64,000 bases of DNA from Neomelitea salexigens DSM 19753. GTDB lineage: Bacteria; Pseudomonadota; Gammaproteobacteria; Pseudomonadales; Spongiibacteraceae. Positions 49,670 to 62,397 of this stretch are shown in pieces. Position numbers and translations under genes: made by a program. Below the pieces are notes generated by a model. The model had not been told where the DNA came from. It ran no database searches and saw only the letters and a list, made by a program, of their open reading frames with translations. The stretch's first letter is position 1. Each line of letters starts with the position of its first letter. Location of the stretch: NCBI RefSeq assembly GCF_000422345.1, contig NZ_AULP01000001.1, forward strand, positions 620,001 to 684,000, read 5' to 3'.

Positions 49670-50182
49670 TCAGTCGTGTGCTAAAGCCCGCTGCCAATGG
49701 GCCAGCACTTCCGGGCTGAAGGCCACTAATAAGATCTGCCGGAGGCTGCGCGGCTCAAGCAAGGCCTCCCGTAAACTGGCCACCGCAATAGCGCAAGCCT
49801 TGTCGTGAGGGTAGCCATAGACGCCGCAGCTAATGGCCGGAAAGGCCAGAGTGGCAAGCTCCAGTGCCTTGGCCTCTTCAATACAGCGGCGGTAGCAACT
49901 CGCCAGTTTATCAGCCTCGCCCTGATCACCGCCGTGCCACACCGGCCCTACCGTATGAAGAATGTATTGAGCTGGCAACGCAAAACCGGGGCTGACCTTG
50001 GCATCGCCGGTCTCGCAACCCTGCAAGCCGCGACAGAAGTCCAACAACTCCGGCCCCGCCGCCCGGTGAATGGCGCCGTCGACACCACCCCCGCCAAGCA
50101 AGCTGTTATTCGCGGCGTTAACGATGGCATCGACGTTTAGCAGGCAGATATCTGCCTGTATGGCTCGCAGTTCACAGGGCAT
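49670..50182 (-). CDS. Macro-domain O-acetyl-ADP-ribose deacetylase (YmdB-like)
   Basis: This 170-residue macro domain has VDAIVNAANNSLLGGGGVDGAIHRAAG at the N-terminus and PAISCGVYGYPHDKA near the centre, the ADP-ribose-binding loops of the YmdB/MacroD type. Family members remove ADP-ribose or O-acetyl groups and YmdB also modulates RNase III. It starts two bases after a CPXCG-protein gene and follows the guanidine operon on the same strand. Confidence 0.9.
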   Translation of the reverse strand: MPCELRAIQADICLLNVDAIVNAANNSLLGGGGVDGAIHRAAGPELLDFCRGLQGCETGDAKVSPGFALPAQYILHTVGPVWHGGDQGEADKLASCYRRCIEEAKALELATLAFPAISCGVYGYPHDKACAIAVASLREALLEPRSLRQILLVAFSPEVLAHWQRALAHD

Positions 50183-50470: not shown

Positions 50471-52282
50471 TTACAGGCTGCGGAGGTAGGCCCGCCAGCC
50501 GCCAAAATGGCTGATGTCCGTCGCGCCGCGAATCCCCGACTGCTCGCAGATAAAGCCGGGACAGAGCCGTCCGTCGACCAGCCGTACTTTGCCGATACCC
50601 AACGGCGCGGGAATCCCGGCCACAAAACTGCCAAGTTCGGCGAGCGGCATCGACCACACTTCCACCTCGATCGCCTGCCCCTGGCCGGACTCGGCCAGCA
50701 CCATGGCCGGACGCAACGGCGGCCCAACGGGCAAGGCATAGAGTTGGTAACCAGGGGCTGACTGCGTGCAAAGCTGTAAGGTGGCACCACGCTCACGAAG
50801 CTGCCAGTTAAGGGGCTGACCGTCCAGGTGGGCGCCGCAAACCACCACGTCCACCCGCTCGGCCGCTGTCGAAGCATTCTCGGAAAGCGGTTCAAAAGCG
50901 CGCTTTTCCGCGCCCAGCGGCAAGGCAAAACGCTGTTGCAGACGGTTGCCAATCGACAGCAGCTTACGGTCGCCGAAAGCCTCGGCCACCAGCGTCAGGC
51001 CAAAGGGGAAACCGTCGTCGGTAAACGCCGTAGGCAATGCCAGACCGCAGAGGTCAAACAGATTCATATAGTTGGTGTAGTAGCCGGTATTACTGTTCAG
51101 GGCGATGGGGTCAGCGTCCAGCTCGGCAATCGAATAAGGTCGTGGCGCGGTGGGTGTGAGCAGTGCATCCACCGAATCCAGCGCGGCCTGCGCCAGTTTG
51201 CGCAGGGCTTTTAAACGGTACTGGGCAGAGAAGGTATCCCGCGCTGATGGCGTTGCACCGCCGCTGATAATCGTTCGGGTGACCGGCAACAGCGCCTCGG
51301 GCTGCTCCTCAATCAATGGTGAACAGGCCAGATAGCGCTCCGCCACCCAGGGGCTTTCGTAAAGCAGTTTGGCGGCATCGAGAAAGGCTGACATATCCAC
51401 CTCGATCAGCTCAACCTCGTCATCTTCGGCAATCGCCGCCAGGCTCTGCTGATAGGCCTGCTCGTAGCCCGCGTGACCGAAAAAAGCGAGTTGTTCCGCT
51501 GGCATCACGCCCAGACGCAATTTACCGGCGTGTCGTCCGTAATGGCGGGAACTGTTGCCGAAGGGATTGGTGCGGCTGTAGGCATCACTGGCGTCCTCAC
51601 CCTCAGCCACCGACAGCACGGCATTGGCGTCATCCACATTCAGTGCAAATACCGTCATGCAGTCCAGCGAGCGGCAGGCGGGCACCATCCCCGTGGCGGA
51701 CAACAGGCCGATACTGGGCTTGAGGCCCACCAGATTATTAAAGCAGGCGGGTACGCGACCCGAACCCGCCGTGTCGGTACCCAGGCTGAAACAGGCCAGC
51801 CCCTTGGCCACGGCCACCGCCGAGCCAGAGCTGGAACCGCCGCTGATCATGTCGGGGTCGACACTGTTTTTACAGGCGCCCCAGGGCGAGCGGGTGCCCA
51901 CCAGGCCGGTGGCAAATTGATCGAGATTGCTCTTGCCCACCGGAATCGCTCCGGCGGCAATCAGCGCTTGCACCACCGTCGCCGATTGCGAGGGGGTATA
52001 GCTAAAGGCTTCGCAGGCCGCCGTGGTGGGCACACCCGCCAGGTCGATATTGTCTTTAATGGCAAAGGGCAAACCAAACAGCGGCAGACTGTCGGGATTG
52101 TGACTGTCCAGCGCTTGCAAATACGGCTCCAGCTCCGCCGCGCTGAGGCGGTAAATCCAGATATTGTGGTCCTTGAGCGCGTCGCAGCGCGCGGCGATAT
52201 CGGCCATCAGCTTGCGCGGTGTCAGGCTGCCATCGCGGTAAGCCTGATGCAGACTGCGGCGACTCAGTGTGGGCAATGTCAT
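50471..52282 (-). CDS. atzF: Allophanate hydrolase
   Basis: This 603-residue AtzF-type enzyme splits allophanate into two ammonia and two CO2. The amidase-signature domain carries the Lys of the triad in FAIKDNIDLAG and the serines in ISGGSSSGSAVAV and GTDTAGSGRVPA. The C-terminal allophanate hydrolase domain (about residues 460-603) is complete, as in AtzF. ATG 52282 overlaps the carboxylase stop (ATGA) with GGAGG upstream; the frame extends further, but those residues are inside the carboxylase gene. It is the last enzyme of the guanidine pathway in this operon. Confidence 0.95.
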   Translation of the reverse strand: MTLPTLSRRSLHQAYRDGSLTPRKLMADIAARCDALKDHNIWIYRLSAAELEPYLQALDSHNPDSLPLFGLPFAIKDNIDLAGVPTTAACEAFSYTPSQSATVVQALIAAGAIPVGKSNLDQFATGLVGTRSPWGACKNSVDPDMISGGSSSGSAVAVAKGLACFSLGTDTAGSGRVPACFNNLVGLKPSIGLLSATGMVPACRSLDCMTVFALNVDDANAVLSVAEGEDASDAYSRTNPFGNSSRHYGRHAGKLRLGVMPAEQLAFFGHAGYEQAYQQSLAAIAEDDEVELIEVDMSAFLDAAKLLYESPWVAERYLACSPLIEEQPEALLPVTRTIISGGATPSARDTFSAQYRLKALRKLAQAALDSVDALLTPTAPRPYSIAELDADPIALNSNTGYYTNYMNLFDLCGLALPTAFTDDGFPFGLTLVAEAFGDRKLLSIGNRLQQRFALPLGAEKRAFEPLSENASTAAERVDVVVCGAHLDGQPLNWQLRERGATLQLCTQSAPGYQLYALPVGPPLRPAMVLAESGQGQAIEVEVWSMPLAELGSFVAGIPAPLGIGKVRLVDGRLCPGFICEQSGIRGATDISHFGGWRAYLRSL

Positions 52283-55200
52283 TGGGCATCCTCCCCGTCC
52301 AGAATTAACAGTGGCTGACCGGCACTGACGCGGCCGCCGGCTTTCACCACCACCGTTTTCACGCGGCCCGGCTGGCTGGCCAGCACAGCCACTTCCATCT
52401 TCATCGACTCCAGCAGCATCACGCACTGCCCGGCTTCAACGGTATCGCCCTCGTCCACATTCAGCTGCCAAACGCTGCCCGCCACCGAGCTGTCCACCAC
52501 AATATCGTTGTCACCAATCACCAGCGTATCGTCGCTGACCTCGACCTCCGGTGCCTCGTAGTGGAACTGGCCATCGGCATGCCAGCGCGCCAGTTCGTCA
52601 TCGAAGGCCTGCTCTCGGCGGCGAGTATGGGCGTCGATTTCCGCCGCGTGCTGCGTGGTAAACGCCTCGTACTCCGCCAGCGAAAACTCGCCCTCCTCGG
52701 TGCGCAGCGGGTAGTCGCCCAGCGGGAAATCGCGACGGATTTGCGTGAGTTCATCGTGGCTGACTTCGTAGAAGCGAATCTGATCAAAAAAGCGCAGCAG
52801 ATAGGGCTCGGTAAACGCAGCCGTGCGACGGTAGCGGTTCCACATTTGCAGGGTGCGACCGACAAACTGGTAACCGCCCGGCCCTTCCATGCCGTACACA
52901 CAAAGATAAGAGCCGCCGATACCCACCGAGTTTTCTGCGGTCCAGGTACGCGCCGGATTGTATTTGGTGGTCACCAGTCGGTGACGCGGATCGACGGGTG
53001 TGGCGACTGGCGCGCCCAGATACACATCGCCCAGCCCCATCACCAGATAGGCGGCGTCGAAGACGATATCCTTGACATCAGCAATGCTGTCGAGACCATT
53101 GATGCGGCGGATAAACTCCAGATTACTCGGGCACCAGGGGGCATTGGCGCGCACCGACTGCTGATATTTATCCACTGCCAACTGGCAGGCCTCGTCGTCC
53201 CAGCTCAGCGGTAGCCACACCGTGCGCGACGGCACCTGCAGGGAATCCAAGCGCTGCGATAAGCGCCGTTCGCGGCGCGCCAGTTCGTCCAGCAGCTCAC
53301 TCAGCGGTAATTGCTGCGCGTCATAATGCAGTTGCAGTGAGCGAATGCCCGGCGTGAGTTCACACAGCCCCGGCAATGGCGTTTGCTGCAAGTCCTGCAT
53401 CAATGCGTGGGCGCGAAAGCGCAGGCGAATATCCAGTTCCAGCGGGCCGTATTCCACCAGCAGGAAGTGATCCCCCGCCAGGCGATATACCACCTCATCG
53501 CCCACCTCGTGAGCACTAAGGCGTTGAACAATGGGCGACGGCAGGGCCTCCACAGAGACTGGCGCCGCGTTTTCGGCAGCGGCGGTGTTATCGCCGAGCT
53601 CATCACCGGCGAAAAAGGCCTGCTGGTAACGCTCAGCCGCCACCGCCGCGTCAACACTGACCGGCACAAAGCGCAGCGTATCCCCGGCGCGTAACTGACC
53701 GAGCTTCCACAGGTCGGCGGTAATCACCGTGGCGGGACAGACAAAGCCGCCCAGCGAGGGGCCGTCCGGGCCGAGGATCACCGGCATATCGCCGGTGAAA
53801 TCCACCGTGCCAAAGGCGTAGGCGTTGTCATGAATATTGGACGGATGCATGCCCGCTTCGCCGCCACTCTGGCGTGCCCACTGCGGTTTGGGGCCGATCA
53901 GGCGCACGCCGGTGCGGCTGGAGTTGTAATGCACTTCCCAGTCGGTGCTGAAGAACTGCTGGATATCAGCGTCGGTAAAAAAGTCTGGCGCGCCGTGGGG
54001 GCCATAAATCACCCGTAGCGACCACTGCGAGCCGATGTCCGGCAGGGCGGCCTGATCCGGACTCAGCGGTGGCCCTATGGCTTCGGACTGCGCCAGCGCC
54101 AACACATCGCCGGTGCGCAGCGCACGACCGTTATGACCGCCGAACTGGCCGAGGGTAAAGGTGGAGCACGAGCCTAGGTACTCGGGGCAATCAAGGCCAC
54201 CTGCAACAGCCAGATACGCCCGCGCGCCGCGCTCGATGCGCCCCATCACCAGCATCTGCCCAGCAGCCACCTCCACCGGCGTGTGCATCGCCACGGGCTC
54301 GCCATCCAGACTTAGAGGAATAGCCGCCCCCGCCACCACAATGCGGGTGGGCGCACTGAATTGCAGGGTCGGCCCCTGCAGGGTGACTTCCAGTGCGGCC
54401 GCATCAGACGTGTTGCCCAGCATCGCATTGGCGAGCCGGAAGGAATAGTTGTCGAAGGGCCCCGAGGGCGGCACGCCCACATCCCAGTAACCGCTGCGAC
54501 CGGGGAAATCCTGAATGGTGGTCTGAGTACCGCCCTGCAGCACATCGATACGCGCAGGCTGCCAAGTTACCTGCGCAAGATAGCGGGTTGTGACGTCGCC
54601 CTTAGACACCACTGCGTCATCCAGCAAGTAACGCAGATAGGCACAGTTGCTTTCAATGCCATAAAGCTGCGTCTGATCCAGCGTCTCCCGCAAACCCTGA
54701 ATCGCGGCGTCGCGGTCCTCCCCTCGGTAGAGAATCTTCGCCAACATCGGATCGAAGTACGGTGACACTTCAATGCCGCTTTCCAGCCAATGTTCAATAC
54801 GCAGGCCAGGCAGCGCCTCACCCCGCTGGGGAAATGCCACATGACTAAGCAGCCCCGCGCAGGGCTGAAAATCCCGGTAGGGGTCTTCGGCATACACCCG
54901 CAACTGAATCGCATGCCCGCTGGCAGACAGGCCCTGGCGAAGCTCATTCAGTGGTGGCAGTTCCCCCGCCGCCTGCTGCAGCATCCACTGCACCAAGTCC
55001 ACCGACCAGACCATTTCGGTGACGCCGTGCTCTACTTGTAAGCGGGTGTTCACTTCAAGGAAGTAGCACTCCTCAGTGTCGGCATCAAAGATGTACTCCA
55101 CCGTGGCGGCGTTGCGGTAGTTCACACTGGACAGCAGCGCTTCGGCCAACTGATACAAGCGCTGGCGCACCGGCTCGGGCAAATTAGGCGCCGGGCACTC

Positions 55201-55917
55201 TTCAATGACTTTCTGGTTGCGGCGCTGGGCGCTACAATCGCGCTCGCCAATCGCCAGCACTCCGCCCTGACCGTCGCCAAAGGCCTGCACTTCAATATGC
55301 CGGGCGCGGGCAATGTACTTCTCCAGAAACACACCGTCGTCGGCAAAGTTGTTCTTACCCAGCTGCTTGACCTTGTTAAAGGCCTCGCGCAGCACCGCCT
55401 CGGAATCACAGACCTGCATGCCGATACCGCCGCCCCCGGCGGTACTTTTGAGCATTACCGGGTAGCCAATATTCGCGGCCTCGGCGCAGGCGGTATCCAC
55501 ATCCGCCAGCAGACCCGAGCCCGGCGGTAGGGGCACGCCCGCCGCGGCGGCTATCTCCCGTGCGCGATGTTTCAGCCCAAAGCTTTGCATCTGCTCCGGA
55601 GTGGGGCCAATAAAGACAATACCCGCCGCCTCACAGGCAGTGACGAAGGCCGCATTTTCGCTGAGAAAACCGTAGCCGGGATGGATGGCCTCGGCGCCAC
55701 AGGCGCGGGCAATTTCCAAGACTTTGTCGCTGTTGAGATAGGTGTCGGCTGCGCCGCCCTCGCCCAGGCTGTAGGCTTCGTCGGCGTGACGCACATGCAG
55801 ACTGCGGGCATCGACGTCGGCGTAAACCGCCACGGAAGTGATGCCCATTTCGCGCAAGGTACGAATAATTCGGGTGGCAATTGCACCGCGGTTGGCAATC
55901 AATACTTTCTTGAACAT
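52279..55917 (-). CDS. Biotin-dependent guanidine carboxylase (urea carboxylase family)
   Basis: This 1212-residue carboxylase has biotin carboxylase (residues 1-450: FKKVLIANRGAIA, STAGGGGIGMQ, EVNTRLQVEHGVTE), two carboxyltransferase subdomains of the KipA/KipI type (about 465-1090) and a biotinyl domain with Lys1173 in ESMKMEV. Sequence alone would be called urea carboxylase. The guanidine-I riboswitch and the two DUF1989 genes in the same operon point to guanidine carboxylase, which makes carboxyguanidine with ATP and bicarbonate. Asp706 (TVDFTGDMP) may be the residue that separates guanidine (Asp) from urea (Asn) enzymes; I recall such a switch but cannot verify the alignment. Start ATG 55917. 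Confidence 0.9.
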   Translation of the reverse strand: MFKKVLIANRGAIATRIIRTLREMGITSVAVYADVDARSLHVRHADEAYSLGEGGAADTYLNSDKVLEIARACGAEAIHPGYGFLSENAAFVTACEAAGIVFIGPTPEQMQSFGLKHRAREIAAAAGVPLPPGSGLLADVDTACAEAANIGYPVMLKSTAGGGGIGMQVCDSEAVLREAFNKVKQLGKNNFADDGVFLEKYIARARHIEVQAFGDGQGGVLAIGERDCSAQRRNQKVIEECPAPNLPEPVRQRLYQLAEALLSSVNYRNAATVEYIFDADTEECYFLEVNTRLQVEHGVTEMVWSVDLVQWMLQQAAGELPPLNELRQGLSASGHAIQLRVYAEDPYRDFQPCAGLLSHVAFPQRGEALPGLRIEHWLESGIEVSPYFDPMLAKILYRGEDRDAAIQGLRETLDQTQLYGIESNCAYLRYLLDDAVVSKGDVTTRYLAQVTWQPARIDVLQGGTQTTIQDFPGRSGYWDVGVPPSGPFDNYSFRLANAMLGNTSDAAALEVTLQGPTLQFSAPTRIVVAGAAIPLSLDGEPVAMHTPVEVAAGQMLVMGRIERGARAYLAVAGGLDCPEYLGSCSTFTLGQFGGHNGRALRTGDVLALAQSEAIGPPLSPDQAALPDIGSQWSLRVIYGPHGAPDFFTDADIQQFFSTDWEVHYNSSRTGVRLIGPKPQWARQSGGEAGMHPSNIHDNAYAFGTVDFTGDMPVILGPDGPSLGGFVCPATVITADLWKLGQLRAGDTLRFVPVSVDAAVAAERYQQAFFAGDELGDNTAAAENAAPVSVEALPSPIVQRLSAHEVGDEVVYRLAGDHFLLVEYGPLELDIRLRFRAHALMQDLQQTPLPGLCELTPGIRSLQLHYDAQQLPLSELLDELARRERRLSQRLDSLQVPSRTVWLPLSWDDEACQLAVDKYQQSVRANAPWCPSNLEFIRRINGLDSIADVKDIVFDAAYLVMGLGDVYLGAPVATPVDPRHRLVTTKYNPARTWTAENSVGIGGSYLCVYGMEGPGGYQFVGRTLQMWNRYRRTAAFTEPYLLRFFDQIRFYEVSHDELTQIRRDFPLGDYPLRTEEGEFSLAEYEAFTTQHAAEIDAHTRRREQAFDDELARWHADGQFHYEAPEVEVSDDTLVIGDNDIVVDSSVAGSVWQLNVDEGDTVEAGQCVMLLESMKMEVAVLASQPGRVKTVVVKAGGRVSAGQPLLILDGEDAQ

Positions 55918-55992
55918 GCTGGTCCGTTGCGGGCCGTCCCGCTTGTGTCTACGACAGTGGCCGTCCACTGAAGTCGTTGGATCGCTTGTTAA

Positions 55993-56634
55993 TCAGGCCG
56001 CCCAGATCAGGCACTCGACCGGGGTCGGGTTGTAGGCATTGCAGGGGTTGTTGAGCTGCGGGCAATTGGAAATGAGCACAATGGTGTCGACCAGCGCTTT
56101 CAGTTCTACATATTTCCCCGCGCCGGAAATACCGTCGGCAAAGCTCAGCTCACCGTCTGCCGTGACAGGCACATTCATAAAAAAGTTGATGTTATGACCG
56201 ATATCCCGCTTGCTCAGCCCGTACTCTGGGTGCTCGGCAATAGCGAGCATCCAACTGTCGCGACAGGCGTGCATACAGCGTTTTTCCAGGTCGTAACGCA
56301 CGGTATTGCTCTCGCTGGCGCAGGCGCCGCCCAGAGTGTCGTGACGGCCGCAGGTATCGGCCACCATTTCCAGCATCGGGCGGTTCAGGGTACTGCGCAG
56401 CACCGAACCGGCGCTCAGGTAGACATTGCCCTGTTCGCGAATGGTGTCGGTGGCGCTGTAGCGCTCAGCGGGGTCGTCGGCGCAGAAGAACAGCGTATCC
56501 GCCGCCTGATTCCCCTCTAAATCGAGGATGCGCAGCACTTCGCCGGCGCCCAGTTTCGCAATGTAGTAATCCCCCGCGTCGATCTGCTCGCGGCGCAGCG
56601 CGGTAGCAGCGAGGCGTTCACTGTGTTTAATCAT
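55993..56634 (-). CDS. DUF1989 protein, carboxyguanidine deiminase subunit
   Basis: This 213-residue DUF1989 protein is usually annotated as urea carboxylase-associated protein. It shows the family core: [50 protein letters not shown] and [17 protein letters not shown], with several His/Cys likely to bind metal. In guanidine-degrading bacteria a DUF1989 pair (CgdA/CgdB) deiminates carboxyguanidine to allophanate, releasing ammonia. GAGGAG lies six bases before ATG 56634. It is a paralogue of the adjacent DUF1989 gene and the two probably form a heteromer. Confidence 0.92.
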
Positions 56635-56644
56635 GTTTCTCTCC

Positions 56645-57355
56645 TCAGGCGCCCAGGTAATACAGTGCGTTGTTGGCAAAGCCACGGCGGTTTTCGTCGC
56701 AGTGATTTAGACAGATATCGTCCTCGGTCATCGGCTCGGCCACGCTCAATTCCACACCAATGCGGCGGCGCGGGTAGTCGGCAGCAGTGTTCAGCGGGTG
56801 GGGACAAGCGTGAATCAGCACCAGGCAATCCATCTCGATGCGCAGAGTCAAGGTGCTGCCCGGCGCACTGTGCCCGGTGGCCAAGTGAAGATTGCCCTCG
56901 TCGTCGGTTTCCACCTTGCTGAAGGCATTGATGTTGGCGGCCATGTCCGCGGCGCCAAGACCGTATTTCGCCAGCTCAACCAGAAAGGCGTCGTGACCGT
57001 TCTGGTGCCAGTCGTTGCGATCGTGTTGGTAATCGCGACGGCCCCAGCGCGCATCAATATGGCTGGCGTGACTATTGCCACACACGGTGTCGTGCCATCC
57101 CAGATCATCGTCAACGATCGAGGCAAAAATGCGTCCCATATCCGAGTACAGACAGTTGCCACGAGTCAGTTTGAAGGTGTGCTGACACTTGAGGGTGTCT
57201 GGCGCGTTGTAGCGCTCGAGCAGGTTGCGCGGGTTATAAAACAGCAGCCCGGCATTGCCGTTGCCGTCGATATCCTGCAGCCGCAACAAGGTGCCGCGAC
57301 GCAGCTCCAGCGACCAATGGCCGCCCGGCGCGATGGTGGTTTCATAATGATTCAT
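56645..57355 (-). CDS. DUF1989 protein, partner carboxyguanidine deiminase subunit
   Basis: This 236-residue DUF1989 protein is the second member of the pair. It shows [51 protein letters not shown], and [19 protein letters not shown] with a [10 protein letters not shown]-like stretch rich in His. It shares one base with the ATPase stop and ends ten bases before its partner. Which subunit corresponds to CgdA or CgdB I cannot assign without an alignment. Confidence 0.92.
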
Positions 57356-58128
57356 CAGACTAACTCCTGGCCTGAGCTGCTCAGGCCACTGTCAATTTCT
57401 TGCAGTAATTCAGGCTCGCACTGCCCAACGGGTAGGTCGTAGGTAATACCTGCACCGAAACGATTGGGCGCTTGCGGGTCGAGGCGTAACTTGTCGAACA
57501 CCCACAGACGGGTGCCCAGATGAAAACCCTCGGCCAGATCGTGGGTCACCATGAACACGGTGAGCTTGTGCTGGCGCCATAGCGACAGCACAAGCGCGTG
57601 CATGTCGGCGCGAATGCCGGGGTCGAGCGCTCCGAAAGGCTCATCCAGCAATAAGATCCGAGGTTTTAGAATCAACGCCTGAGCAATCGCCAGTCGCTGG
57701 CGCATACCGCCGGAGAGTTCATCCGGGTAACGTGCCGCCATATGTGACAGCCCCACCGTTTCCAGCATCGCCATCGCTTCCTCGCGGGCAGCGCGTTTAC
57801 GCTTGCCCCAGAGAAAGCCCAGGCGGGTCTTCTCAAACGCACGGGCGATGATGACGTTTTCCAACACGGTCATGTGAGGAAACACCGAGTACTGCTGAAA
57901 GACCACTCCGCGCTCGGCATCGGGCTCATCGGCAATGGTTTTGCCGTCCAGCAGAATCTCACCCTGATTGGGCACATCAGTGCCCAACAACATGCGCAGG
58001 AAAGTGCTCTTGCCACAGCCCGAGGCCCCTACCAAAGTGATAAATTCCCCTTCAGCAACCGTGGCAGAAATATTTTCCAGAATGACGTTGTCGCCGTAGC
58101 GCTTCCATACATTGCGAATCTCGATCAT
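57355..58128 (-). CDS. ABC transporter ATP-binding protein (guanidine uptake)
   Basis: This 257-residue SsuB/TauB-type ATPase has Walker A GASGCGKST, a Q-loop in VFQQYSVFPHM, the signature LSGGMRQR, Walker B LLLDEPFGALD and a switch His in MVTHD. ATG 58128 overlaps the permease TGA (ATGA). It drives the importer whose permease and binding protein precede it, and it shares a nucleotide with the DUF1989 gene. Guanidine or a closely related compound is the likely cargo given the operon. Confidence 0.95.
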   Translation of the reverse strand: MIEIRNVWKRYGDNVILENISATVAEGEFITLVGASGCGKSTFLRMLLGTDVPNQGEILLDGKTIADEPDAERGVVFQQYSVFPHMTVLENVIIARAFEKTRLGFLWGKRKRAAREEAMAMLETVGLSHMAARYPDELSGGMRQRLAIAQALILKPRILLLDEPFGALDPGIRADMHALVLSLWRQHKLTVFMVTHDLAEGFHLGTRLWVFDKLRLDPQAPNRFGAGITYDLPVGQCEPELLQEIDSGLSSSGQELV

Positions 58129-58940
58129 GAGCGACTCTCCTGCCAGGGAAAGGCCCACAAACTCAGCTTGCGCAGCACAAAGTCGATAACAAATGCCAGC
58201 AAAGCGATCCAGGCAACATAGGGCAGGATCACGTCCATCGACAGGTAGCGGCGAACAAGAAACACCCGATACCCGAGGCCATCGGTAGAGGCGATGGCTT
58301 CTGCGGCGATAAGGAACAACCACGCGCTCCCCAACGACAGTCGCAAGGAATCGATCAGCCGAGGCATCAATTGGGGGATCAGCACCCGCAAGACTATTTG
58401 CCCACTATTGGCACCCAGTGTCTGCGCTTTTACCAGCTGTTCCCGGGGAATTTCCAGACAGCGCTTTTGGATATCGCGCGCGACGAAGGGCGTTACGCCA
58501 ATGGCAATAAGCGCAACCTTAGACACCTCCCCCAAACCAAAGACAATAAACAGTATCGGCAAAATCGCCATTGGCGGTATTAGTGATGCCACCGTCAGCA
58601 ATGGCGCAACACCCGAATAGGCAACAGGAAAGGCGCCGGTACTCAGACCTAGCAACATCCCCAAGCCAGCGGCAATTGCCATACCCAAACCCAGGCGCTG
58701 CAAACTGCTGAGAGTGTCCTGCCAAAACAGGTACTCCCCCGTGCGCTTACTCGGCTCAAATGCTAAGCGCTGCATCGCCTCACCCATCTGAGAGAAGCTG
58801 GGTAAAAGCTTGTCGTGGGGGTTTTCCGCCAAACGTGCATCAGAGGCCGTGACGTAAAGCACCAACAGGATTACGAAGGGCAGTAATGACAAGGCAATGC
58901 CCCATACCCGCGTCGGCTGCTGATTAATCAATCGTTTCAT
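58125..58940 (-). CDS. ABC transporter permease (guanidine uptake)
   Basis: This 271-residue inner-membrane permease of the SsuC/TauC class has about six TM helices. The EAA coupling loop is visible around CLEIPREQLVKAQTLGANSGQIVLRVLIPQLMPRLID. ATG 58940 has GGGA seven bases upstream, and the frame to 59162 overlaps the binding-protein gene and is not conserved. It is 58 bases downstream of the binding-protein gene and overlaps the ATPase gene by four bases. Confidence 0.95.
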   Translation of the reverse strand: MKRLINQQPTRVWGIALSLLPFVILLVLYVTASDARLAENPHDKLLPSFSQMGEAMQRLAFEPSKRTGEYLFWQDTLSSLQRLGLGMAIAAGLGMLLGLSTGAFPVAYSGVAPLLTVASLIPPMAILPILFIVFGLGEVSKVALIAIGVTPFVARDIQKRCLEIPREQLVKAQTLGANSGQIVLRVLIPQLMPRLIDSLRLSLGSAWLFLIAAEAIASTDGLGYRVFLVRRYLSMDVILPYVAWIALLAFVIDFVLRKLSLWAFPWQESRS

Positions 58941-58998
58941 AGAAGCATCCCAGCTGAGAAAAATGGTTAGGGTGGCAGGCGCCACCCTCGGGCACGGT

Positions 58999-60039
58999 TT
59001 ACAATTTGCCGTCAGCCGCCATTTGCATAAAGCTGGGGTTAAAACGCAGTTTGACGTTTGCCGGATTGCCATAGACACCGACAGGCGTTTCGATACCGAT
59101 GAAACCGGCGTCGGGAGCGCCGTCACCCAGCAAACCGTGGTTAAACGAGAATTCAGCCACACTCTGCATGGTTGACTTCAGGTCACTGCTGCGGGTGAAA
59201 GCGACCGCGTCGCTGGGCGTGTAAAACATTTTCGTACTGGCCAGCTGCGCATCGTAGCCGGCGGTGTCCGTCCCCGACGCAATTGCCATCGCCGTGCGGG
59301 CAGCGAGACCCGCCTTTCCTGGGGCGCTCATGGTCGCCATGATTTCATACCAAGCGCCAACTAACGCCTTACCGAGAGCAGGGTTTTTCTTTAATACCTC
59401 GGTGTTCACCACGAGCAGGTCGATAATTTCGCCGGGTATTTGAGAAGAGTCGAACACCTTGTTTGCGCCGGGCATGGTGAGAATTTCACTGAGTAATGGG
59501 TTCCAAGTCACCACAGAACTTACCCCCGCTGTTGGGTAGATAGCGACCATATCGGCGTCGGAGGTATTCACAACGGTAACGTCAGATTCGCTCATGCCGA
59601 CGCTATCCAGTGCGCGCGCCAGCAAATAGTGGGAAACACTCAACTCAACTAAATTCACTTGCTGTCCCTTCACAGCCTGAAGTGAGTCGGTATTTTTCAG
59701 TACCAGCCCGTCATTGCCATTAGAAAAATCGCCGACAATTAACGCAGTACTGTCCACACCGCCTGCAGCGGGAATTGTCAGCGCATCCATGTTCGTCATG
59801 GTGCATGCGTCAAACTCGCCGGTGGTGTATTGGTTTATTGACTCGATGTAGTCGTTGATCTGAACGACATCAATCTCAATGCCGTATTTCTTCGCCCATT
59901 TATCGACGATTTTTTGCTCTTCACCATAGCCCCACGGCATCCAGCCAACATAAATTGACCAGCATACTTTGAAGCTGTCTGAAGCGAGACTAAAAGAGGA
60001 ACATGAGAGAGTAAGTAGTAATGCGGCTATTCGTTTCAT
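58999..60039 (-). CDS. ABC transporter substrate-binding protein (guanidine uptake)
   Basis: This 346-residue periplasmic binding protein has a Sec signal peptide (about residues 1-19, ending SLAS). The NMT1/SsuA-like fold is shown by VCWSIYVGWMPWGYGEE, ACTMTNMDALTIPAAGG and the second lobe with PGEIIDLLVVNTEVL. The gene is first in the operon, and GGAGG six bases before the ATG lies in a small hairpin. It is preceded by the guanidine-I riboswitch, so guanidine is the likely ligand, although this family also binds nitriles, sulfonates and thiamine precursors. Confidence 0.93.
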   Translation of the reverse strand: MKRIAALLLTLSCSSFSLASDSFKVCWSIYVGWMPWGYGEEQKIVDKWAKKYGIEIDVVQINDYIESINQYTTGEFDACTMTNMDALTIPAAGGVDSTALIVGDFSNGNDGLVLKNTDSLQAVKGQQVNLVELSVSHYLLARALDSVGMSESDVTVVNTSDADMVAIYPTAGVSSVVTWNPLLSEILTMPGANKVFDSSQIPGEIIDLLVVNTEVLKKNPALGKALVGAWYEIMATMSAPGKAGLAARTAMAIASGTDTAGYDAQLASTKMFYTPSDAVAFTRSSDLKSTMQSVAEFSFNHGLLGDGAPDAGFIGIETPVGVYGNPANVKLRFNPSFMQMAADGKL

Positions 60040-60094
60040 TGCCTGCCTCCGGCATCGTTACGCGGTAAATAGAGCACTCCTGGCAACTGGCTGC

Positions 60095-60222
60095 CGATCG
60101 TCTCCCGGGCTTTTTTCCCGCCGTGTAACCTATCCCGTGGCGAATCCAATCGATGGGGGAAAAGGTCGAAAGCTCTCGGACCAGACGTTGTGCAAGGTGC
60201 ACAACCGGAACCCTAGCTCTCC
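60095..60222 (-). promoter_or_regulatory. Guanidine-I (ykkC) riboswitch aptamer
   Basis: Read on the minus strand, the region contains the conserved blocks of the guanidine-I class in the right order: CTAGGGTTCCG, a P1b hairpin (GTTGTGCACCTTGCACAAC), GTCTGGTCCGAGAG, a variable stem, ACACGGCGGG, then an A-run and GCCCGGGAGA. These match the published consensus almost base for base. It lies 56 bases upstream of the binding-protein start of the guanidine operon. Binding of guanidinium should turn the operon on. No U-tract terminator follows, so control may be translational. Confidence 0.95.
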
Positions 60223-60546
60223 ATTACCAAATTGTGATGCTTTGACAGCATGTCCTGCGATACCAAGAGTGCGGACACCGTGTTCTATACAGAATCCATG
60301 CCAACACTACTTCCACCGCCAATTCACGGTACTCGCCGACCGGGGCGACCGAACCTGCCGCCATTACCGCCCTCCAATGGGGCGCAAAATGTTCTAACGC
60401 ACAAATATGTCGCACTCAGCCAGCCTGGTGGTTGTCACAAATTCGTCAACTCTTCGACATGTTTTCTTTGTTAAACCGTCATAGTCCGTCCCTAGACTGG
60501 GCTCCCGTTATAACTAGACCAATCCACCTCTTTCTAGGGAACTGTT
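60223..60546. other. Divergent intergenic region guanidine operon / phoX
   Basis: These 324 bases hold no convincing gene. On the minus strand they must carry the guanidine operon promoter; I see no clear -35/-10 pair. On the plus strand a PHO-box-like repeat (60431-60448) and a TATAAC hexamer (60509-60514, no good -35) precede phoX. Confidence 0.5.
60431..60448 (+). promoter_or_regulatory. PHO-box-like direct repeat upstream of phoX
   Basis: TTGTCACAAATTCGTCAA has two GTCA cores 11 bp apart, separated by an A/T-rich AAAT spacer, as in the PhoB consensus. The match is 5/7 in the first half and 4/7 in the second. It lies 99 bases before the start of a PhoX-type phosphatase gene, where PhoB control would be expected. 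Confidence 0.4.
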
Positions 60547-62397
60547 ATGAACAAGAAGTTATTGAGCGCTTCCATTGCCGCTATTCTGGCTGCAACACTG
60601 TCAGCCTGCGGCGGCGATGACGGACGCAATGGTAGCGATGGCCAAGACGGCGCGGTAGGCCCACAAGGTCCTGCGGGCGTAGATGGAAGCAATGGTGCAA
60701 ATGGCGCTGATGGCCAGGATGGCGCAGACGGTCAAGATGGTGCTGATGGCATCTCTACGGTGACACCTAAAGGCCTCAAACGGTTTGCTACCGCTCCGCT
60801 CGGCGCTGAGTTTACCGGAATATTCGTTAACGAAGACGGCAAGCTGTTCTCCAATATTCAGCACCCAAGCAGCTCTAACACAACCACGGATTCAGCTGGC
60901 AAGGTCTTTAACGTAGGTACCGTTGGCTACTTTAACGCCGACGTTAACAACATGGGCGATATTGCCGCTCTGGATTTCCCGATCACCACGGCACAAAAAG
61001 AAACCGTACAAAGCGCCGCTGGAAGTTACATTGTGTTGGCGCAACAGGGTGACAACCTGGCCGATGGCAACAAAATGGGTGACATCCTCAGCGCCAACGG
61101 CAGTTTAATCAAAAGCTCTAATGACCCCGACTTTAACGGCGCCGTCTCCGATGGTGGCACCGGCTACTACCTGTATACCAACTGGGAGGACCGCCCAGGC
61201 AGCATGAGCCGTATTCGCTTAACGGATACTTATAGCCCGACCCAGGAAGGCATGCTGGACTTCTCCAGTGTCGACGGCACCTGGGTTAACTGCTTTGGCA
61301 CGGTAAGCCCCTGGGGAACGCCACTGTCGGCAGAAGAGCTGTACTTTGACAATACCGCCGACTGGTTCAATGCCAATGCCAATTATTTCTCCAATGCCGA
61401 AGCGATTGCTGAATACAAAGGTTACCCGCTGGATCGCAGCGGGAACTGGGGCAACCCTTACGACTACGGCTACATTGTCGAGATCGGCACTAACAACACC
61501 GCAGCAACAGCCAATGTTGCCGATGTTGAAGTGAACAAACTTGAGCTGATGGGCCGCTTCTCACACGAAAACCCCGTGGTTATGCCAGACCGCCGCACCG
61601 TCTTCCTCAGCGACGATGGCACCGGCACAGTGCTGTTTAAGTTTGTGGCCGATGCCGCTAACGATATGAGCGCGGGCAAGCTCTACGCCGCAAAAGTCAC
61701 CCAATCCAATGGCATCATTGACCCAGCCGAAGCTGCCTTTGCCGTGGAATGGATTGAGATCGGTGCTGGCAATGAGGCCGATATCGAAAACGCCATTGCG
61801 AGCTTCGACGGCACGTTTGCCGACGCCAAGCACATTAGCGATGCGCAAATTCAGGCCTTCGCAGAATTCAAGTCAGGGCAAGACCTCGACAACAGCGGTA
61901 GCGTTGCCGCCAACCCCTTTGCCGATGAGCGCGTCGCCTTCCTTGAAAGCCGCAAACTCGCTGCAGCAATGGGCGCAACGGCTGAGTTCCGCAAAATGGA
62001 AGGCATCAACATCAACTTCGGCTTGGCCGACACATGGTGGAATAACGGCGCTGCAGATGGTGCCCAAGCCTACATGTATCTGGCCATGTCTTCGTTCGAC
62101 GCCACTATGGCTGACGGCACCGGAGACATTCAGCTAGACGGCACTCACGGCAAGTGTGGTGTGGTCTACCGCATGAAGCTCGTTGAAAAGGATGGCCTCG
62201 TAGACATCAACACCCTCACCCCAGCGCTTGTCGGCGGCCCCTACTACGGCGATCGTGCAGCAAACCGCTGTAACACAAATAACATCTCCAACCCCGACAA
62301 TCTGGTGATCTTGGACGATGGACGAGTGTTGATTGGCGAAGACACTGGCAACCACGAGAACAATGTGATCTGGCTGTTTGAAGATCCTGCTCTGTAG
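60547..62397 (+). CDS. phoX: PhoX-family (DUF839) lipoprotein with collagen-like linker
   Basis: This 616-residue exported protein has a lipobox LSAC (Cys21), then 14 Gly-X-Y triplets (residues 26-67). A PhoX/DUF839 beta-propeller-like domain follows, with NCFGTVSPWGTPLSAEE, VVMPDRRTVFLSDDGTG, FKFVADAAND and SNPDNLVILDDGRVLIGEDTGNH. PhoX is a Ca/Fe-dependent alkaline phosphatase. Most PhoX proteins are Tat-exported and soluble; this one looks like a Sec lipoprotein held on a flexible spacer. AGGGA lies six bases before the ATG. Enzymatic activity is inferred; some DUF839 proteins are not phosphatases. Confidence 0.88.
   Translation: MNKKLLSASIAAILAATLSACGGDDGRNGSDGQDGAVGPQGPAGVDGSNGANGADGQDGADGQDGADGISTVTPKGLKRFATAPLGAEFTGIFVNEDGKLFSNIQHPSSSNTTTDSAGKVFNVGTVGYFNADVNNMGDIAALDFPITTAQKETVQSAAGSYIVLAQQGDNLADGNKMGDILSANGSLIKSSNDPDFNGAVSDGGTGYYLYTNWEDRPGSMSRIRLTDTYSPTQEGMLDFSSVDGTWVNCFGTVSPWGTPLSAEELYFDNTADWFNANANYFSNAEAIAEYKGYPLDRSGNWGNPYDYGYIVEIGTNNTAATANVADVEVNKLELMGRFSHENPVVMPDRRTVFLSDDGTGTVLFKFVADAANDMSAGKLYAAKVTQSNGIIDPAEAAFAVEWIEIGAGNEADIENAIASFDGTFADAKHISDAQIQAFAEFKSGQDLDNSGSVAANPFADERVAFLESRKLAAAMGATAEFRKMEGININFGLADTWWNNGAADGAQAYMYLAMSSFDATMADGTGDIQLDGTHGKCGVVYRMKLVEKDGLVDINTLTPALVGGPYYGDRAANRCNTNNISNPDNLVILDDGRVLIGEDTGNHENNVIWLFEDPAL
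60622..60750 (+). repeat. Gly-X-Y (collagen-like) tandem repeat within phoX
   Basis: Fourteen consecutive Gly-X-Y triplets, residues 26-67 of the PhoX-type protein, are followed by a further Gly68. Several triplets recur as GQD and GAD, so the DNA is also an imperfect 9-bp repeat. Gly-Asp-rich, Pro-poor triplets of this type form bacterial collagen-like stalks or spacers. Confidence 0.9.

Follow-up and report, generated by a model that had tools for sequence, protein, structure and literature searches.

A guanidine-I riboswitch upstream of a guanidine import and assimilation operon in Neomelitea salexigens, with a candidate long-range switching helix and a sigma-54-like promoter

The operon studied here is preceded by a guanidine-I (ykkC) riboswitch, and we regard both this identification and the function of the operon in guanidine import and assimilation as virtually certain. 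The riboswitch and the guanidine substrate are in themselves already-known, ordinary biology. We further propose that guanidine would bind the aptamer and turn on the import and assimilation operon through a helix (E1:E2) that encloses the aptamer, with transcription probably directed by a sigma-54 promoter. Taken as a whole, with the proposed switching and promoter layer included, this explanation is given a probability of roughly 0.7. Positions throughout refer to the window, i.e. the whole 64 kb stretch of DNA that was analysed (Table 1).

Table 1. Positions in the window of the riboswitch, its associated sequence elements and the operon genes
Feature	Position	Strand	Basis or remark
Sigma-54-like promoter TGGCATGGATTCTGTA	60288..60303	-	Compared with TGGCAYN5TTGCW
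E1, GCACUCUUGGUA, 5' strand of long-range helix enclosing the aptamer	60261..60272	-	
Guanidine-I (ykkC) riboswitch aptamer	60100..60227	-	RF00442, 87 bits, full length
GGUUACACGG, 3' strand of P2 plus conserved ACACGG core; candidate alternative partner of A'	60121..60130	-	Aligned aptamers, complementarity test
GGGAG, conserved aptamer 3' end; may be the 5' strand in an alternative hairpin with E2	60102..60106	-	
E2, UGCCAGGAGUGC, 3' strand of long-range helix	60074..60085	-	12 pairs with E1
A', CCGCGUAAC, complementary to GUUACACGG, immediately before the ribosome site	60057..60065	-	
Shine-Dalgarno GGAGG	60046..60050	-	Sequence
ABC substrate-binding protein, TIGR03427	58999..60039	-	562.6 bits, cut-off 333.9
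ABC permease	58125..58940	-	PF00528; start is a chosen internal ATG, ORF open to 59162
ABC ATPase	57355..58128	-	PF00005; start is a chosen internal ATG, ORF open to 58323
Carboxyguanidine deiminase-type subunit UAAP1, TIGR03425, DUF1989	56645..57355	-	311.8 bits, cut-off 205.95
Carboxyguanidine deiminase-type subunit UAAP2, TIGR03424, DUF1989	55993..56634	-	316 bits, cut-off 284.7; internal ATG start chosen
Guanidine carboxylase, annotated urea carboxylase, TIGR02712	52279..55917	-	1797 bits, Asp signature; internal ATG start chosen
Allophanate hydrolase, TIGR02713	50471..52282	-	764 bits; internal ATG start chosen

The aptamer, the operon and its substrate

A covariance-model search with RF00442, which had been suggested as a check when a first-pass annotation proposed a guanidine-I (ykkC) riboswitch at this site, bore the proposal out. 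The match to the minus strand of the 64 kb window (87 bits, the model's gathering score being 63; E = 3.5e-14) runs end to end, from 60227 to 60100 and from model position 1 to 107 of 107. The four conserved blocks claimed for this strand, CTAGGGTTCCG, GTCTGGTCCGAGAG, ACACGGCGGG and GCCCGGGAGA, were found in the claimed order, and the position directly upstream of an ABC importer operon was also correct, the importer gene starting at 60039 after a gap of 60 bases. The boundaries first given, 60095-60222, located the element but lie five bases off those of the model. Among 21 aligned aptamers both the ACACGG core and the GGGAG end are invariant (21/21 each). This element is the one guanidine-I match in the 3.4 Mb genome (E up to 0.001). 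A second riboswitch nearby was rejected, since no further Rfam family reached its own cut-off in the 64 kb window; under relaxed thresholds, the sole extra row at 57000-61500 besides guanidine-I was a sub-threshold snoRNA match. In one congener (G004, L039) a long P2 arm splits the aptamer into two weak Rfam matches whose conserved blocks look intact, and at G080:C31, G387:C8, G497:C1 and G512:C13 two guanidine-I aptamers share a strand, separated by about 1.4-1.6 kb.

Judged by its protein families, the operon is the gene set of the known guanidine carboxylase pathway, and published guanidine carboxylase operons have the same gene set (PMC12508155, PMC12186494). PF09347 was found in both DUF1989 proteins, which score above the cut-offs of TIGR03425 and TIGR03424 and adjoin the carboxylase. 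Carboxyguanidine deiminases are DUF1989 (PF09347) proteins with two subunit clades (PMC11410670), and we read the family models as identifying UAAP1 and UAAP2 as the putative subunits of such an enzyme. The importer would bring guanidine into the cell and the biotin-dependent carboxylase would convert it to carboxyguanidine, which the two DUF1989 subunits would deiminate to allophanate; allophanate hydrolase would then release the remaining nitrogen as ammonia. A search of the genome for urease alpha gave no match. Just past the operon lies a macro-domain ADP-ribose hydrolase-like gene (49670-50182, minus strand), and the divergent gene on the other side (60547-62397, plus strand) encodes a protein with a PhoX domain and, at its N-terminus, a collagen-like repeat. 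The genome has one small multidrug resistance family gene (G000:C12:73235-73513), away from the guanidine-I element.

Evidence on the substrate also came from the carboxylase itself. In an alignment to the K. lactis enzyme, N1330 and D1584 correspond to Asp 723 and Asp 981 of the window carboxylase, numbered along the ORF at 52279-55968. These two positions constitute the signature of guanidine carboxylase, Asp at K. lactis position 1330 being guanidine-type (PMC11410670), and the window enzyme, with D723 and D981, has the guanidine signature. The same positions were read in 59 other carboxylase genes listed above the family cut-off, whose linkage to a riboswitch was assigned by coordinates: Asp was present in 45 of the 45 riboswitch-linked genes, and the 14 unlinked ones comprised nine with Asn and five with Asp. 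These five (L145-L149) belong to genomes without a guanidine-I match, and at least two of them lie close to a contig end. A congener, G010, has no guanidine-I match and no carboxylase among those listed above the cut-off, which suggests joint loss or absence of riboswitch and carboxylase. The best 80 of 267 relatives of the importer protein were also inspected, and all 80 have an aptamer core no more than 900 nt upstream. Among named matches to this protein the top one, 99% identical, is from S. marinus DSM 17750, and the source belongs to the Spongiibacter/Zhongshania group.

An alternative is that the operon serves urea and that the riboswitch-like RNA is either incidental or a sensor of another ligand, as in ykkC subtype 2 (ppGpp or PRPP). 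Urea is indeed named in the database labels of importer and carboxylase, TIGR03427 still being called a 'putative urea ABC transporter substrate-binding protein'. However, this reading is opposed by the full-length RF00442 match, by the guanidine-type Asp and the deiminase-type subunits, and by the fact that all nine Asn-type carboxylases among the 59 lie away from any guanidine-I match, and we consider it extremely improbable. A ligand other than guanidine was rejected given the full-length RF00442 match and the operon content. The earlier statement that the riboswitch fixes the substrate as guanidine rather than urea was right about guanidine, for which the Asp signature and the deiminase-type subunits speak, but too strong in letting the riboswitch alone decide the matter.

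Complementarities around the aptamer and the proposed switch

The aptamer is flanked by two complementary strands, E1 ending 33 nt before it and E2 beginning 14 nt after it. E1 lies between promoter and aptamer within a motif, GUCCGYACUCUUGG...GGAC, that is conserved within the group and absent or replaced elsewhere; in the window this motif, including its own GUCC/GGAC repeat, spans 60252-60276, and with up to three mismatches allowed it was present in 60 of the 122 upstream regions. From the 122 leaders, removal of G094 and L130 by a start-codon rule and of L094 for its Ns left 119, and 56 non-redundant ones entered a permutation test. The best helix between a leader and its own upstream region had a mean of 23.3, compared with 17.5 for cross-pairings, and the own value was reached in 0 of 20,000 permutations, a statistic that kinship among the leaders inflates to an unspecified degree. 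The signal persisted in the remaining 36 leaders (0/10,000) when the 20 with an E1-like motif were removed. Control regions gave 1161/10,000 (100-200 nt upstream) and 581/10,000 (first 60 nt of the gene); the region from -100 to -60, in which E1 lies in some leaders, also gave a signal against the leader (1/10,000). Taken leader by leader, the complementarity reached p<=0.05 in 18 of 56, and another count of 18 of 56 applies to leaders that have no E1:E2 helix inside the length and position limits used. For the window's E1, the E2 regions of three other leaders fit equally well as or better than its own, and congeners share the motif. A register test on 43 distinct motif-anchored E1/E2 pairs found 93% of positions paired, against 38-50% in slid registers and a mean of 87% (maximum 90% of 5000) with permuted partners; this is a weaker test because the anchoring motifs are themselves complementary. 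Among 26 aptamers from outside the order, a set from which three guanidine-I matches below cut-off were excluded, the signal was weaker yet present (10/10,000, redundancy unfiltered). Complementarity of E1 and E2 beyond chance in the relatives, with covariation, is statistically supported.

A second complementarity involves the conserved core of the aptamer. In the window, A' forms eight of nine pairs with GUUACACGG, with one A.C mismatch. In the leaders of relatives a CCGUGUAACC-like sequence, complementary to the GGUUACACGG of the aptamer, is common shortly before the ribosome site. Compared with shuffled leaders, core:A' complementarity reached p<=0.05 in 17 of 50 non-redundant leaders, and eight control probes did so in 0-2 of 50. 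When folded unforced and without E1, the core was paired with the leader (mean probability >0.5) in 40/50 leaders and in 7.6/50 shuffled ones. These comparisons give statistical support to core/A' complementarity beyond chance in the relatives. Probes for GGGAG showed no excess of complementarity to the leaders (0 and 1 of 50); in folding, GGGAG was predicted to pair with leader sequence in 48 of 50 cases (mean of 37.9 and range of 34-44 for shuffled leaders), a modest excess.

The mechanism that we propose combines these elements. Without guanidine, the core would pair with A' beside the ribosome site and E2 could pair with the GGGAG end of the aptamer; this fold would disrupt the aptamer and block the start region. 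When guanidine is present, the aptamer would retain core and GGGAG and E1 would capture E2, while A' would be released and the start region would open. As ordinary secondary structure, E1:E2 and core:A' are alternatives because the two helices cross and cannot nest.

Folding with the aptamer forced was applied to 38 leaders with a suitable E1:E2 helix. The mean predicted E1:E2 probability rose from 0.20 to 0.90; E1:E2 increased in 35 of the 38, the other three being already at 0.98 or above, and the start region opened in 30/38 (Wilcoxon p 5e-5). These shifts, and the exclusivity of E1:E2 and core:A', are partly by construction, since pseudoknots were disallowed and the core was barred from pairing in the forced fold. 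Even unforced, E1:E2 was at 0.5 or above in 8/38; it stayed low under the forced aptamer in L079 and L107 (0.17 and 0.28). A simpler version, in which core:A' alone controls opening of the start region, was tried and rejected: the start region opened in 36 of 50 leaders, with a mean change from 0.41 to 0.46 (Wilcoxon p 0.005), and the window was unchanged (0.38 to 0.38 when folded without E1 and with the aptamer forced). The opening shift was larger once E1 was included.

For the window's own leader the predictions are equivocal. Its minimum-energy fold without E1 contains the core:A' pairing. With E1 included, the unforced fold gives core:A' a probability of only 0.10 and E1:E2 one of 0.50 already, and the free and aptamer-forced folds differ by 2.3 kcal/mol, which indicates that the blocked state is not favoured here. 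Forcing the aptamer with E1 present raised openness of the start region modestly, from 0.28 to 0.39. We put the switch as written, in which guanidine would replace a fold that blocks the core by the E1:E2 fold, at about an even chance. We infer which way the switch works in this clade, and likewise an output that would be translational rather than Rho-dependent.

Promoter, nitrogen control and competing explanations

Upstream of E1 is a sigma-54-like site whose -24 part is perfect and whose two mismatches both fall in the -12 part. Sites were scored with what we take to be the sigma-54 consensus, TGGCAY-N5-TTGCW, and with what we likewise take to be the NtrC half-site consensus. Similar sites are present in the congeners, with -12 parts that resemble that of the window; the strict pattern (one mismatch) found nothing in 16 congeneric upstream regions, since the -12 part is CTGTA in most of them. 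Across the non-redundant set, TGGCAYN5TTGCW was found 20-260 nt upstream with at most one mismatch in 43/56 leaders (shuffled 1.8%) and with at most two in 52/56 (shuffled 14.1%), and NtrC-like half-sites averaged 1.32 per upstream region against 0.21 in shuffled sequence. Outside the order, 18 of 26 carried the sigma-54 motif at the one-mismatch limit. In eight leaders classed as 'same phylum' (L218, L222, L225, L229, L233, L234, L237 and L241) the motif precedes the aptamer by 25-28 nt, which leaves no room for E1 and would place the start of transcription at about the aptamer 5' end. Genes for RpoN and NtrC are present in the genome, and no sigma-70 promoter was found around the element (59900-60600). 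Transcription is probably from a sigma-54 promoter, and expression would then need both nitrogen limitation and guanidine. We infer sigma-54/NtrC control and the transcription start from these motifs, and consider a nitrogen-control layer likely.

Two further explanations bear on E1 and E2. They may be inverted DNA sites of a protein regulator, with complementarity reflecting operator symmetry and not RNA pairing. A palindrome-like GAGUACUC inside E2 in part of the clade and the closeness of E1 to the promoter are in keeping with this reading. However, the sequences differ between clades while pairing is kept (e.g. L085 with 19 bp, G082, G106 and G139), which would not be expected from one shared operator, and the signal survives without the common motif, making an operator improbable. 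A stronger competitor has the same aptamer acting through transcription termination, either intrinsic or Rho-dependent with E1:E2 as the antiterminator. Guanidine-I usually prevents a terminator, according to a review (PMC12186494), and in several members of other families of the class (G348, G306, G291 and G510) a post-aptamer hairpin followed by a U run could be read by eye; in G510, also by eye, E1 pairs as an antiterminator would, with the strand that precedes these Us. Against this, the usual intrinsic-terminator platform, which is typical but not obligatory, is represented by zero terminator-like sites at 59900-60600, and TTTTT occurs in only 5 of the 50 leaders of the set. We rate termination as a genuine contender that falls somewhat short of an even chance. 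The comparison suggests an ON role for E1:E2 with an output that differs between families: because other families have the corresponding hairpin as an apparent intrinsic terminator, a change of output with retention of the antiterminator arm would have taken place in the platform.

Relation to known systems and significance

Compared with known guanidine-I riboswitches (ykkC subtype 1, RF00442), the element is alike in its aptamer, end to end with all conserved blocks, and in its target genes, which are guanidine genes. It differs in three respects: the search for an intrinsic terminator was negative, sequences 5' of and after the aptamer are complementary to each other around it, and the core has a complementary stretch at the ribosome site. 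The operon of Vreelandella boliviensis likewise combines a guanidine-I riboswitch with ABC importer genes, two cgd subunits, carboxylase and allophanate hydrolase (PMC12508155). According to the same paper, mgdH/mgdL lie there between carboxylase and allophanate hydrolase, whereas here the two ORFs overlap and leave no room; its guanidine-I switch has a presumed intrinsic terminator, whereas none was found here. Also in this comparison, guanidine-II had no match anywhere in the genome studied here. The P0 helix of PRPP and ppGpp ykkC riboswitches resembles E1:E2 in linking sequences on either side of the aptamer and in being tied to the expression platform (PMC6031431). Unlike E1 and E2, with their spacing from the aptamer, P0 is formed by the ends of the aptamer and recognizes part of the ligand, and that paper states that it is absent from guanidine-I.

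Among the titles and abstract starts listed, a coverage that lies outside the original guanidine-I description, there was no description of E1:E2 or of sigma-54 control. It is possible that E1:E2, the second, core-complementary stretch and the sigma-54-like promoter are undescribed in the literature covered and form a platform variant. Whether a large group of proteobacterial guanidine operons carries the aptamer inside an E1:E2 switching helix exclusive with a core-blocking helix at the ribosome site, on a platform that would have changed its output while keeping the antiterminator arm and behind a sigma-54 promoter that would make the operon an AND gate of nitrogen limitation and guanidine, is in our view evenly balanced.

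Riboswitch and pathway together confirm a role in guanidine use, in this marine genus, for genes whose annotation still says urea. The architecture supplies specific base pairs and promoter positions. If real, it shows the rewiring of one aptamer class between termination and another output, and it connects guanidine sensing with nitrogen starvation, a link relevant to the question of when bacteria make use of guanidine in nature.
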